A DNA stretch of 64,000 nucleotides from Mycoplasmatota bacterium. Lineage in GTDB: Bacteria > Bacillota_I > Bacilli_A > Izemoplasmatales > Hujiaoplasmataceae. The stretch lies in assembly GCA_027859085.1 (NCBI GenBank), contig JAQIBJ010000047.1, positions 1 through 64,000 of the forward strand, written 5' to 3'. Position numbers and translations under genes: made by a program. The notes under the pieces are model-generated. The model was not told the DNA's origin, ran no database searches, and saw nothing but the letters and a program-made list of their open reading frames with translations. This document shows, one piece after another, positions 1,666-58,007 of this stretch (position 1 is its first letter; the number at the start of each line of letters is the position of its first letter).

Positions 1666-3318
1666 ATGAAGAAATTTTTTGGTTTTATGAGTTTATTAAC
1701 AGTTTTAATTTTTGGAATAAATCAATATGTTTTTGCTGGACAAATTAATTATTTGCCTGGTGGTAAGAATTATGTATCTATGGATAATCTAGAATATATT
1801 ATGGAAGAGGCTCCTGTATTATATTCAATTGATGACATTATGGTTAAGCCAGATACGGATTATGTATTTTCAATTGATGCAGCTTTGGATAGTCCAATGG
1901 TGGAAATATATATACGGTATATAAGCAATGGCGAAATTTACGATGAAGTCATTTTTACTGGCAATGATTTTTTAGGAACATCATTTGATAGCAATACGTA
2001 TCGTTATTATTTGTTTTCAACTGATATAGACGTTAATTTCATCTCTTTAGAAATAAGAGGGTTAGATGTGATGAGTAAAGAAGAGGCTCAGGGTATTCAG
2101 ATTGAAGAAGGCAATTTTCCGACTGCTTATGAGGAGCATATTCCTGGAACGATGATTGATACAACCTCACCGTATTTTCAAAGTTCAGGTACAATCATCT
2201 CATATGTTGATCGACCAATTACAGCGGTAGAAGTTCAAAACTCTTTGGTTGCTTATGATACAATTGATGGCGATGTATCGACCAATATTACTTTATTGAA
2301 TGATGGGTACACGACTTCGATGGACACATTGGGAACTTATTCAATGATTTTTAGTGTCGCTGATTCGAGCGGAAACTTATCTGAAGTTGAAATATTTGTG
2401 GAAGTTGTGGATGTCTTAGAGCCTGTATTTTCAGATATTAATCAACTAGAAGTATTGTATCCCAATGTATTGACTGAAGAGGAGATTCTTTCACAATTAT
2501 CTGCAAGCGATAATTATGATGGAGATATTTCCCATTTAATAACGGTTGTGAATAATGAGTATACAATTAATTCTAATATAGTGGGCACTTATGCTATGCA
2601 ATTTAGTGTTTTAGACAGTTCTGGAAATGAAACGTTACATGATTTAGTTATTGATGTGATTGATCAAGAAGCACCAATCATTACTGGTGAATCCAGTATC
2701 CATATTGGATATAATCAATATTATTCTGAATCAACTATTATATCAGGGTTAAGTGTATCGGATAATTATGATCAAAACATCTTTTTGGTTGTGGAAAGTA
2801 ATGCTTATAAAGATAATCCTAAACAAATCGGAGAATATGATGTTGTATTTTCAGCAACTGATTCTTCCGGTAATCGAACTGAAAAAATAATAACGGTTAA
2901 TGTGATTGATAGCATTGGCCCCATGATATACTTTGACTTATCAGTGATTCAAGTGTATTCAGATCAAGTGATGACTCTACCAGATTTTGCGGAATTATTA
3001 ACAAAAACAAATGAATTAGACAGTCGTAGAGACTATCTGATAACTGTGAAGTATGATTCCTATACAAAACACGCCAATAAACCAGGAACCTATCATTTGA
3101 AACTATTGTTTGAAGATGAATTTGGAAAAAAAACTAATAAAAATTTAGAAATTAAAGTCATTGATCAGGTTGTTGACGGTATCTTTTTATCGCCTGAAGA
3201 AATTGAAGTTGGATTTTTTGAAAAAAATCAAAATATATTGATCCTTGGAGGTAGTGGATTAGTACTGATGGGGAGTAATTTAGCATGGTTTTTTATTCAT
3301 CGAAAACGCATAATATGA
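1666..3318 (+). CDS. Surface-anchored protein with repeated DUF5011/HYR-like Ig-fold domains
   Basis: Signal peptide; repeated V-D-..AsDNYDGDIS..N.vGtY.m.FsvxDSSGN...V.D units; C-terminal TM helix followed by HRKR. Confidence 0.75.
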   Translation: MKKFFGFMSLLTVLIFGINQYVFAGQINYLPGGKNYVSMDNLEYIMEEAPVLYSIDDIMVKPDTDYVFSIDAALDSPMVEIYIRYISNGEIYDEVIFTGNDFLGTSFDSNTYRYYLFSTDIDVNFISLEIRGLDVMSKEEAQGIQIEEGNFPTAYEEHIPGTMIDTTSPYFQSSGTIISYVDRPITAVEVQNSLVAYDTIDGDVSTNITLLNDGYTTSMDTLGTYSMIFSVADSSGNLSEVEIFVEVVDVLEPVFSDINQLEVLYPNVLTEEEILSQLSASDNYDGDISHLITVVNNEYTINSNIVGTYAMQFSVLDSSGNETLHDLVIDVIDQEAPIITGESSIHIGYNQYYSESTIISGLSVSDNYDQNIFLVVESNAYKDNPKQIGEYDVVFSATDSSGNRTEKIITVNVIDSIGPMIYFDLSVIQVYSDQVMTLPDFAELLTKTNELDSRRDYLITVKYDSYTKHANKPGTYHLKLLFEDEFGKKTNKNLEIKVIDQVVDGIFLSPEEIEVGFFEKNQNILILGGSGLVLMGSNLAWFFIHRKRII

Positions 3319-3347
3319 TTGACATCTTCTAGTCCATAGGTTATAAT
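3319..3347 (+). promoter_or_regulatory. Consensus vegetative promoter for riboswitch/P-type ATPase
   Basis: TTGACA (3319-3324), 17-nt spacer, TATAAT (3342-3347). Confidence 0.85.
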
Positions 3348-3354
3348 TATATCA

Positions 3355-3435
3355 ATAAGGGAGTAGCTGGCCTAAGTGCAATTAAATCAACATCATGGTT
3401 AAATACCTGGTTTAATTTTAAACAGCAAGACTTAT
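3355..3435 (+). ncRNA. yybP-ykoY type (Mn2+) riboswitch aptamer
   Basis: GGGAGTAGC (3358-3366) and AGCAAGACTT (3424-3433) match the conserved strands of yybP-ykoY; P1 ATAAG (3355-3359) pairs CTTAT (3431-3435); located 5' of a P-type ATPase. Confidence 0.82.
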
Positions 3436-3463
3436 GCATTTTTTGTGTATAAGTCTGTTTTTT
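3428..3463 (+). terminator. Riboswitch expression-platform terminator
   Basis: AGACTTATGCA / TGTATAAGTCT stem (one G-T wobble) followed by GTTTTTT. Confidence 0.85.
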
Positions 3464-3481
3464 CTAAGAAAGGGTGAATAT

Positions 3482-6172
3482 ATGGAGTCATACAGTCAAT
3501 CAAAAAAGGAAATTTTAGAAACTTTAAAAGTTGATTCAAAAAAGGGATTAACGAAAGAGGAAGTCAATAAGAGGCAGGAAGAATACGGGAAGAATCAATT
3601 AAGAGAATCAAAGAAAAAAACAATGTTAATGATGTTTCTTGATCAATTTAAAGACTTCTTGGTTATTATTTTAATTATAGCCGCAGCAGTATCCGTTGTG
3701 GTTGGCGTTTTAGAAGGAGAAGGGTTAATTGATGGATTCATCATTATTGCCATTGTCTTATTAAACGCTATTCTTGGAGTTAACCAGGAACAAAAAGCAA
3801 ATAATGCGTTGGCAGCGTTAAAGAAAATGAGTTCTCCACATGCAATAGTTATTCGAGAAGGAAAAACAATTGAAGTTTCTTCTGAAGAATTAACAGTTGG
3901 TGATATTGTTTTATTAGAAACTGGAGATTTTGTGGCTGCGGACATTAGGCTGTTAGAATCAACCAATTTAAAAACTGATGAATCATCTTTAACTGGAGAA
4001 TCAACGCCTGTAGAAAAAGATGCAAGCATAGAACTTGAAGACCCTACTGCATTGGCAGAAAGAGAAAATTCAGTATATATGTCAACCCTTGTTACTTATG
4101 GTAAGGGAAAAGGGATTGTCACTGGTATTGGAATGGAAACCGAGATAGGTAAGATTGCAACAATGCTTGATGCCGTAGAAGAAGGCAAAACACCATTACA
4201 AAAAACCATTGATCAATTTGCTAAAGTATTGGGTATTGTCATCATCATTATTTCATTTGTGGTATTTATGTTAGGTTTCATTCAAAATAATTTTGAATTT
4301 GAACTTGAGTTATTCTTGACATCAGTTGCGTTAGCTGTTGCGGCTATCCCAGAAGGATTAACCGCTGTTATCACTGTTGTTTTGGCTTTAGGAATGCAAC
4401 GGATGGTTAAAAGAAATGCAATTATTAAAAACTTATCAACAGTTGAAACCTTAGGGCAATCATCAGTGATTTGTTCAGATAAAACTGGAACATTAACCCA
4501 AAACGAAATGACTGTTAGACGCATTTATGATTTAGATCATGTATATGATGTTAGTGGAAATGGTTATGAAACTAAAGGCGACATCCTATTAGATGATAAA
4601 AAAGTTAAACCTAGTGGTAATTTAGAAAAAATTTTACAGATATCATTATTATGTAATGACTCAAAAATAGAAAGTGCAAATAAAATATTAGGAGATCCGA
4701 CAGAAGGCGCCTTATTAGTAATGGCAGCTAAGGGTGGGTTTTCTGTAGATGATCCCGAAGATACTTATCCACAATTAAATGAATACACATTTGATTCAAC
4801 AAGAAAAATGATGTCTTCAATTAATAAAGTTGACGATAAAAATCTTGTTTTAACAAAAGGGGCTAGTGACCAATTGATTAAGAAATGTAATCGCATTTCA
4901 ATCAATGGTAAAGTTAGAAAAATCACAAAAAAAGACATTGATAAAGTCTTAAAACAAAATGAAGAATTTTCAGCACAAGCATATCGAGTTTTAGGGTTTG
5001 CTTATCGTGAGACTGATGAGCCTAAATCAATGGATTTAGAACAAGATTTAATTTTTGTTGGTTTAGTGGCAATGATTGATCCACCAAGACCAGAAGCAAA
5101 AGATGCGATCGCTAAATGTCATACAGCGGGAATCCGTGTCATGATGATTACGGGTGACCATATCATTACAGCTAAAGCAATCGCTAAAGAACTCAATATA
5201 TTAAAAGAAGGTGGACTTGCTTTATCTGGTGAGGACACAAGAGATATGTCCGATGAAGAATTTGAAGAAGCAATCCTTAAATGTGATGTGTTCGCAAGAA
5301 GTACACCAGCAGATAAGATTAGAATTGTTGAAGTTTTACAGAAAAATGGAGAAGTTGTCGCCATGACTGGAGACGGTGTCAATGATTCTCCAGCATTAAA
5401 ACAAGCTGAAATTGGTGTTGCAATGGGTATTACAGGTACTGAGGTTTCTAAAGAAGCATCTAATATGATTTTGACAGATGATAACTTTAGTTCAATTGTT
5501 GCAGCTGTAGAAGAAGGAAGAACAATTTATAGTAATATTAGGAAATTTACCGTGTTCTTAGTTTCATGTAACGTTGGTGAAATCTTTATAATTTTATTAG
5601 CGATGATATTTTCACCATTCTTTAATGGACTATTACCATTGATGGCCATTCATTTATTATGGATTAATCTAATGACCGATTCATTCCCAGCATTTGCGCT
5701 TGGTATGGAAAAAGCTGAAGGTAATGCGATGGATAGAGCACCTCGTGATACCAAAGAAAAATTATTAAATAAAGAAACATTGATTAAAGTACTTATTCAA
5801 GGTACCGGATTAATGTTAGCTGGTTTAACAGCATTCAAATTAGGGTTATCAGTCATTGAAGGTGCATCTGAAACACAAGCCATTACAATGGCGTTTGTAA
5901 CTATTGTGTTTGGTGAATTGTTAAGAGCTTTCTCAGCAAGATCAGAAACGAAATTCTTATATCAATTCAATCCATTCAGTAATAAGTTTTTAAATTACTC
6001 TGTATTTATTTCTTTAGGTCTTGTGTTATTATTAGTTTATGTGCCATTTACTGCAGAAATATTCAAATTAGAACCATTAACATTTGTGGAATTATTAATT
6101 GCAATGGGTCTTGGAGTTGTACCAATGTTGTTTGGTGAAATAACAAAAATTGTGCAAAAAGCTGCTTATTAA
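3482..6172 (+). CDS. P-type (IIA, Ca2+/Mn2+-type) cation-transporting ATPase
   Basis: SDKTGTLTQNEMT, TGES, MITGDH, TGDGVNDSPAL motifs; ORF-track start 3434 lies inside the terminator, so start re-set to ATG 3482 preceded by AGAAAGGGTG. Confidence 0.93.
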   Translation: MESYSQSKKEILETLKVDSKKGLTKEEVNKRQEEYGKNQLRESKKKTMLMMFLDQFKDFLVIILIIAAAVSVVVGVLEGEGLIDGFIIIAIVLLNAILGVNQEQKANNALAALKKMSSPHAIVIREGKTIEVSSEELTVGDIVLLETGDFVAADIRLLESTNLKTDESSLTGESTPVEKDASIELEDPTALAERENSVYMSTLVTYGKGKGIVTGIGMETEIGKIATMLDAVEEGKTPLQKTIDQFAKVLGIVIIIISFVVFMLGFIQNNFEFELELFLTSVALAVAAIPEGLTAVITVVLALGMQRMVKRNAIIKNLSTVETLGQSSVICSDKTGTLTQNEMTVRRIYDLDHVYDVSGNGYETKGDILLDDKKVKPSGNLEKILQISLLCNDSKIESANKILGDPTEGALLVMAAKGGFSVDDPEDTYPQLNEYTFDSTRKMMSSINKVDDKNLVLTKGASDQLIKKCNRISINGKVRKITKKDIDKVLKQNEEFSAQAYRVLGFAYRETDEPKSMDLEQDLIFVGLVAMIDPPRPEAKDAIAKCHTAGIRVMMITGDHIITAKAIAKELNILKEGGLALSGEDTRDMSDEEFEEAILKCDVFARSTPADKIRIVEVLQKNGEVVAMTGDGVNDSPALKQAEIGVAMGITGTEVSKEASNMILTDDNFSSIVAAVEEGRTIYSNIRKFTVFLVSCNVGEIFIILLAMIFSPFFNGLLPLMAIHLLWINLMTDSFPAFALGMEKAEGNAMDRAPRDTKEKLLNKETLIKVLIQGTGLMLAGLTAFKLGLSVIEGASETQAITMAFVTIVFGELLRAFSARSETKFLYQFNPFSNKFLNYSVFISLGLVLLLVYVPFTAEIFKLEPLTFVELLIAMGLGVVPMLFGEITKIVQKAAY

Positions 6173-57185: not shown

Positions 57186-57878
57186 ATGGCAAAAAAAGGA
57201 AAAAAATACACTGAAGCATTCAGTAAAGTTGATAGAACAAAAACTTATCCAGTTGATGAAGCTGTAGAGTTGGTGAAATCAATTTCCTTTGAAAATTTTG
57301 ATGCATCTTTTGAATTGGCTTTCAATCTTAACCTTAACCCTCGTAAAGCAGAACAAAACCTTAGAGGCGCTGTCGTTTTACCGAATGGAACAGGGAAAAC
57401 AAAAACTGTATTAGTTTTTGCTAAAGGTGCAAAAGCTAAAGAAGCTGAAGAAGCTGGCGCTGATTACGTTGGCGATGAAGACTTAGTGAAAAAAATCAAC
57501 GATGGATGGGCAGAATTTGACGTGGTAATTGCAACACCAGACATGATGGCAACTGTTGGTAAGTTAGGACGTGTATTAGGGCCTAAAGGTTTAATGCCTA
57601 ACCCTAAAACAGGAACTGTTACAATGGATGTAGAAAAAGCTGTTAGCGATTCTAAAGGTGGGAAAATCACTTATCGCGTAGACAAATTTGGAAACATTTT
57701 AGTCTTAATTGGAAAAGTTTCATTCACAACTGAAAAACTTGTTGAAAACATTAAAACAGTTGTAGATGTTGTAAGAAAACTTAGACCATCAACAGTAAAA
57801 GGTGTATATCTTAAAAATGTTAGTATCTCATCTACGATGGGACCTGGCGTAAAATTAGAAGTTAAAAAAACAATATAA
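57186..57878 (+). CDS. rplA: 50S ribosomal protein L1
   Basis: [31 protein letters not shown]. Confidence 0.98.
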
Positions 57879-57883
57879 TAATC

Positions 57884-57930
57884 GAAGACAGTAGGGGCTA
57901 GCGCTTAATAAGCCTACCGAGATTAAGATT
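57884..57930 (+). ncRNA. L10 (rplJ) mRNA leader
   Basis: GAAGACAGTAGGGGCTAGCGCTTAATAAGCCTACCGAGA resembling Firmicutes L10 leaders; GTAGG/CCTAC stem. Confidence 0.72.
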
Positions 57931-57946
57931 TTTAAATTCACTATTT

Positions 57947-57984
57947 AAACCTCTTTTTCTCGTTAAAAGAGGTTTTCGTATTTA
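57947..57984 (+). terminator. Attenuator hairpin in rplJ leader
   Basis: Perfect 11-bp stem AAACCTCTTTT-tctcgtt-AAAAGAGGTTT followed by T-rich tract. Confidence 0.7.
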
Positions 57985-58007
57985 TTAGACAAGAAGGAGG
58001 TCTATGA

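Follow-up and report, generated by a model that had tools for sequence, protein, structure and literature searches.

In the stretch of DNA analysed here (64,000 nucleotides of an uncultured Izemoplasmatales bacterium, hereafter the window) a gene for a P2-type cation-transporting ATPase is preceded by a leader with its own promoter and terminator. We asked whether this leader is a metal-sensing riboswitch, how it would act on the gene and which metal the pump would move. We concluded that the leader is very probably a transcriptional ON-type riboswitch of the yybP-ykoY (Mn2+) class, in a compact three-way-junction form, which controls the ATPase.

The comparative evidence comes from related loci, of which 80 were found with the ATPase as query. 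A covariance model, R1, was made from 17 Izemoplasmatales-type ATPase leaders, this leader included (the training leaders), and its 75 hits outside the training set (73 distinct sequences) were evaluated separately.

Layout of the leader

The elements of the locus follow each other in the order promoter, aptamer, terminator and ATPase gene.

3319-3347, + strand: sigma-70-type promoter, TTGACA-N17-TATAAT; predicted transcription start at about 3354, the aptamer 5' end
3355-3435, + strand: compact yybP-ykoY (Mn2+) aptamer with P1.1, L1, P1.2, a rudimentary P2, P3.1, L3 and P3.2, P4 being absent (minimum-energy fold, covariance model, pair counts)
3429-3463, + strand: intrinsic terminator, GACUUAUGCAU-UUUUU-GUGUAUAAGUC followed by six U (3458-3463); stem of -13.4 kcal/mol
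3470-3476, + strand: Shine-Dalgarno-like AAGGGTG, 3' of the terminator (direct reading)
3482-6172, + strand: gene under control of the leader, encoding a P2-type (PMR1/SERCA-like) cation-transporting ATPase of 896 aa (NCBIfam; PDB relatives)

With TTGACA at 3319-3324, TATAAT at 3342-3347 and a spacer of 17, the promoter matches the consensus at 12 of 12 positions, so that the consensus promoter with a start at the aptamer 5' end, as claimed in the preliminary description, was found with exact coordinates. No other exact match exists among the 64 kb of the window; 0.06 would be expected by chance according to shuffled sequences. Among the 17 homologous leaders the promoter score was 10-12 of 12 in 14 and 9 in the other three. 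The terminator stem (3429-3455) with its six T (3458-3463) was the sole terminator-like site within 3200-3600, compared with 0.1 in shuffles. Since the ribosome binding site lies downstream of the terminator, control would be exerted by transcription.

Anatomy of the aptamer

The canonical architecture of the class was present in the minimum-energy fold of 3353-3438, and the following parts were assigned.

3355-3359, + strand: 5' strand of P1.1 (the switch helix), AUAAG; pairs with 3431-3435 (direct reading and folding)
3360-3366, + strand: L1, GGAGUAG, a sarcin-ricin-like loop strand, invariant in 17 leaders
3366-3369, + strand: 5' strand of P1.2, GCUG; pairs with CAGC at 3423-3426, all four pairs showing compensatory changes
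3370-3379, + strand: rudimentary P2, GC..GC, with two pairs only here and of the ACGC/GCGU type in relatives (leader alignment)
3380-3389, + strand: 5' strand of P3.1, ten pairs with 3408-3417 (fold; 98.7% of cells paired in the 75 hits outside the training set)
3390-3396, + strand: L3 bulge, ACAUCAU, containing A3392
3397-3407, + strand: P3.2 hairpin, GGU-UAAAU-ACC, 3397-3399 pairing with 3405-3407; three pairs compensated in the training alignment
3418-3422, + strand: junction strand UUAAA, 5 nt, replacing helix P4 and giving a three-way junction (fold; linker comparison)
3423-3430, + strand: 3' strands of P1.2, CAGC (3423-3426), and of L1, AAGA (3427-3430) (alignment, compensation)
3431-3435, + strand: 3' strand of P1.1, CUUAU, common to the terminator 5' arm; this is the switch (folding; overlap kept in homologs)

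The internal loop L1 between P1.1 and P1.2 reads GGAGUAG / RAGA and was invariant in the relatives except at R. Its A3362 corresponds to A10 of the Xanthomonas oryzae riboswitch, which makes an A-minor contact with P3.1 (PMC6754395). In L3, A3392 lies beside the P3.1 pair C3388-G3409, the equivalent of C44-G66 in X. oryzae (numbering of PMC6754395). A3392 itself is the counterpart of the Mn-coordinating adenosine, A48 in X. oryzae and A41 in Lactococcus lactis, whose N7 contacts Mn2+ (PMC6754395). L1 GGAGUAG, GCAAGA on the 3' side, ACA of L3, C3388-G3409 and the 10-bp P3.1 thus each lie where the crystal structures have them. An adenosine was found at this position in all 75 hits outside the training set and in 16 of the 17 training leaders. 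The exception (L016:2854-2954) reads UCAACUAACAC in L3 and carries U at the Mn-coordinating position; its metal preference may differ, or the register may be shifted.

Two strands had been pointed out earlier as conserved, GGGAGTAGC and AGCAAGACTT, and both are present, at 3359-3367 and 3424-3433, whereas the key core strand UCAACA of L3, which holds the Mn-coordinating A, had been overlooked. The window contains the combination GGGAGTAG-N20-TCAACA a single time.

Helix P4 and the four-way junction were not found; the linker UUAAA takes their place. P4 is not obligatory for the class, because the yybP-ykoY aptamer of Streptococcus pneumoniae mgtA is described as a three-way junction (PMC9495176). 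The compactness of the central region, already noticed in the preliminary description, was borne out by the comparison and consists in the loss of P4, which leaves a three-way junction. The aptamer alone was no more stable than shuffles (z 0.35), and no weight was laid on fold stability.

Competition between P1.1 and the terminator

The sequence AUAAG occurs twice in the leader: 3355-3359 is the 5' strand of P1.1, and the copy at 3449-3453 lies in the 3' arm of the terminator. The two compete for CUUAU at 3431-3435. On the DNA this strand, CTTAT at 3431-3435, had been placed within the terminator 5' arm, and we found it there, with AGACTTATGCA at 3428-3438. The overlap is kept in relatives: in 90 of the 112 leaders compared (some loci occur in two sets) the P1.1 3' strand is also part of a hairpin further downstream, which is followed by a T-rich tail.

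P1.1 is marginally stable. In partition functions of the growing transcript its value was 0.62 at nt 3437, and by nt 3455 the terminator had taken its place with 0.995. Because P1.1 gives way to the terminator in these folds, the default state would be OFF.

The following mechanism is proposed. Without ligand the terminator, which takes up the P1.1 3' strand for its own stem, would displace the weak 5-bp P1.1, so that transcription would end before the ATPase gene. When Mn2+ is high it would bridge L1 and L3, the N7 of A3392 serving as the soft ligand, and the docked aptamer would keep P1.1 until RNA polymerase has passed. The pump would then be made and cytosolic Mn2+ lowered. For the ligand, the direction of the switch and the substrate of the pump we infer from relatives what is probable here; in L. 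lactis, Mn2+-stabilised P1.1 blocks the terminator (PMC11087558).

Related leaders and covariation

When the 17 leaders were aligned most core columns were invariant and 96.2% of the cells were paired, compared with at most 39.5% in control slides. R1 scored the window element with 96.5 bits (training range 70.6-102.7) and matched one place only in its own genome; the window sequence is part of the R1 training set. Matches were obtained in 25 of 90 genomes of the order, in 24 of 34 genomes of the own family, in none of the 49 genomes of a sister family (f2) and in 77 of 395 genomes of a class-level sample.

The element is far beyond chance, and the informative part is how R1 behaved outside the training set. 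In the 75 hits 95.3% of the cells pair, and for 23 of the 25 pairs both partners change. The covariation score was 0.685, whereas shuffles gave 0.221 +/- 0.010 and slid controls 0.086 at most. The latter comparison is the safer one, because the sequences are related to each other and were aligned by fitting to the model. Covariation was found in P1.1, P1.2, P2 (two pairs in this member), P3.1 and P3.2. Seven of the eight counted pairs of P3.1 and all four of P3.2 were compensated in these hits.

The letters before the invariant adenosine were AC or UC in 74 of the 75 hits; these two types are known from X. oryzae and L. lactis (PMC6754395). The junction strand measured 6-8 nt in 71 of 75 and mostly ended in UUAAA or UUAAU, and a P4-like hairpin was seen in only three. 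Thus the P4-less form is widespread; the counts, coming from a model of P4-less leaders, do not imply that forms with P4 are rare. We tentatively suggest that the P4-less elements with their uniform 6-8 nt UUAAA-type junction strand could be a coherent subclass of Mn2+ riboswitches across Bacilli, largely unseen by the Rfam model RF00080. The strand would replace P4 and might tune the choice of Mn2+ versus Ca2+, and Izemoplasmatales might re-use the element on different exporters (the ATPase mostly, mntP in one genome).

In one genome (G030) the riboswitch and terminator lie at one contig end and a leaderless ATPase on another contig (L002 upstream of 1789; L095). An IS605/TnpB-like insertion, recognised by eye, seems to separate the two.

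Genes behind the element and the metal of the pump

R1 was trained on ATPase leaders alone, and the downstream gene was read for the 75 hits outside the training set. The gene classes were obtained with BLAST against representatives, five of which for MntP and two for the exchangers were confirmed by Pfam. The genes were mntP-type (35), P-type ATPase (20), Na/Ca-exchanger family, CaCA (19), and another transporter (1), which places 74 of 75 hits before mntP, ATPase or CaCA genes and in a context of Mn homeostasis. As there are few such genes per genome, this is not chance. The one remaining hit, at L169, stands before a gene that by eye resembles a TrkH-type potassium transporter, not a Mn exporter.

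Within the own family, one genome (G018, locus L104) has mntP (PF02659, E 4.7e-46) behind the same compact switch, again with the GACTTATGCAC terminator; no ATPase match was obtained in this genome at E<=1e-150. The ATPase occurs in 25 of the 34 genomes of the family, MntP in 4 and both in one; these counts, which ignore phylogeny, are suggestive only of an exclusion between ATPase and MntP. A second copy of the element in the window's genus (L106) contains P4 and lies before a Na/Ca exchanger.

A second type of L3 (G-UCA...AC, as in the Rfam family SSRC10 and in L. lactis) was seen at L178, L164, L165, L174, L191, L183, L184 and L193. It occurs before ATPase and CaCA genes and before 0 of the 35 mntP genes, and it may mark a different Mn/Ca preference.

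The ATPase of the window scored 724 bits with the PMR1-type model of NCBIfam (cut-off 798, missed), 675 bits with the SERCA-type (703, missed) and 546 bits with the PMCA-type, for which the cut-off of 507 was reached. It belongs to the P2A ATPases, the PMR1, SERCA and PMCA subclasses not being separated by these scores, and its closest solved structures are LMCA1 and human SPCA1 (PDB). A call of Mn2+ versus Ca2+ from the residues of the ATPase was given up: the motifs VAAIPEG in M4, NVGE in M5 and NLMTD in M6 look generic for P2A. Its own genome (87% complete) gave no hit for MntP, CaCA or Nramp, and the absence of MntP and CaCA from a genome of this completeness leaves the ATPase as a plausible Mn exporter.

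The alternative that survives best keeps the aptamer class and makes the element effectively a Ca2+ or mixed Ca2+/Mn2+ sensor over a Ca2+ pump. The closest families of the ATPase are indeed Ca2+ pumps, and CaCA exchangers are often targets of the same element. Moreover, the three-way-junction aptamer of S. pneumoniae mgtA reportedly binds Ca2+ tighter than Mn2+, according to a review (PMC9495176). The same review, however, reports that activation in S. pneumoniae was greater by Mn2+ than by Ca2+. The mntP-type genes behind 35 of 75 hits, together with the same-family locus L104, also speak for Mn2+, and so does the invariance of the adenosine that offers the soft N7 ligand. We therefore regard the Ca2+ alternative as unlikely. 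Export of Mn2+ by the ATPase is the best prediction and is well supported by context, with Ca2+ possible as a co-ligand or co-substrate. A likely role in Mn2+ export would thus fall to an ATPase that annotation would name a calcium pump.

The Mn2+-riboswitch identity proposed in the preliminary description, and the ON-switch logic that went with it, are both supported by this comparative evidence, namely the covariation, the invariant core adenosine, the gene context and the conserved overlap.

The possibility of a degenerate leader, and the Rfam models

The leader might instead be an aptamer relic that attenuates the ATPase constitutively without sensing a metal. P2 is down to two pairs, and a decayed aptamer with an intact terminator is known from a relative; all core nucleotides are nevertheless intact here and the R1 score lies within the training range, which makes a relic very improbable. 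In the relative concerned (L006:2871-2957), the ATPase leader has lost GGGAGTAG of L1 and TCAACA of L3. The pump behind it may be permanently attenuated, or another start may be used.

A search with RF00080 had been proposed as a check on the riboswitch, and it gave no hit at the cut-off. With gathering thresholds, cmscan of the window reported only a ribosomal protein L10 leader (RF00557, 69.2 bits) at 57864-57987, an ordinary feature. With relaxed thresholds RF00080 matched the leader with 17.8 bits (E 0.0028; cut-off 45). This miss is uninformative as a refutation, because the Escherichia coli mntP leader (L108:962-1058), a verified Mn riboswitch (PMC9603457, PMC11647493), also fails with 41.6 bits. 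RF00080 also rejects 18 related loci, the alx leader (L109) gives no match to it at E<=1, and its printed structure line holds no P1 pairing. We dropped RF00080 as a membership test because of this insensitivity to the E. coli mntP leader. The compact form escapes the current Rfam model entirely, and at the cut-off even the mntP member from E. coli does.

The best covariance-model match to the leader at relaxed thresholds was SSRC10 (RF02617, 'Streptococcus sRNA 10'), with 38 bits and E 5.4e-6 over 3355-3462 (cut-off 56, not reached). This match and the observation of SSRC10 as a discrete RNA in Streptococcus pyogenes (PMC3675131) would suit a free-standing small RNA with its own terminator and no switch. 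We nevertheless consider this the least probable reading of all. SSRC10 itself has a terminator at its end and is followed by a gene for a putative calcium transporter (PMC3675131); in genomes with SSRC10 hits, ATPase, mntP or CaCA genes have the aptamer in front of them; P1.1 and the terminator are mutually exclusive and both conserved; and a terminated riboswitch leader would resemble a small RNA. SSRC10 as an independent small RNA was rejected on account of its place before the calcium-transporter gene and its co-location with aptamers. Most likely it represents the Mn-riboswitch leader of a gene for an MgtA-type ATPase in its terminated state, and the S. pyogenes RNA would be the product of termination in this circuit. 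Rfam would then contain what looks like one element twice, as RF00080 and as SSRC10.

Comparison with known systems

The riboswitch class is known and the leader is one of its ordinary members; the three-way-junction form has already been described in front of an ATPase gene, for S. pneumoniae mgtA. A literature search found no riboswitch paper on Izemoplasmatales, to which the known Mn2+ switch is hereby extended.

The mgtA product is a P-type ATPase under a Mn riboswitch (PMC11434433, PMC9331361) and a failsafe Mn exporter (PMC11434433). The mgtA riboswitch (Martin et al. 2019 via PMC11434433, PMC9331361 and PMC9495176) shares with our leader the three-way junction, the P-type ATPase and the Mn2+-activated transcription that is predicted here. 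It differs by its lineage and, if it is of the SSRC10 type, by an L3 reading UCAAUAC versus ACAUCAU here, the two being compared by description.

The competition between P1.1 and the terminator and the ON direction are those of the L. lactis yybP-ykoY riboswitch (4Y1I; PMC11087558). The L. lactis ATPase YoaB ('YaoB' in PMC11477304), which gives protection against Mn2+, is likewise under a Mn riboswitch, and Mn riboswitches precede ATPases in Clostridioides difficile as well as in L. lactis (PMC11477304). The crystallised L. lactis RNA has a four-way junction with P4 and an L3 of UCA-A-U-U-C, whereas our leader is without P4 and has ACAUCAU.

With the E. coli mntP riboswitch (L108) the leader has in common L1 GGGGAGUAGC, the L3 UCAACAUAC and GCGAGACC. 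The E. coli element differs in that P4 is present, control is translational and the gene product is MntP, not an ATPase. SSRC10 (RF02617) resembles the leader in that its model spans aptamer and terminator and in its place before a calcium transporter gene; it differs in being filed as a Streptococcus small RNA.
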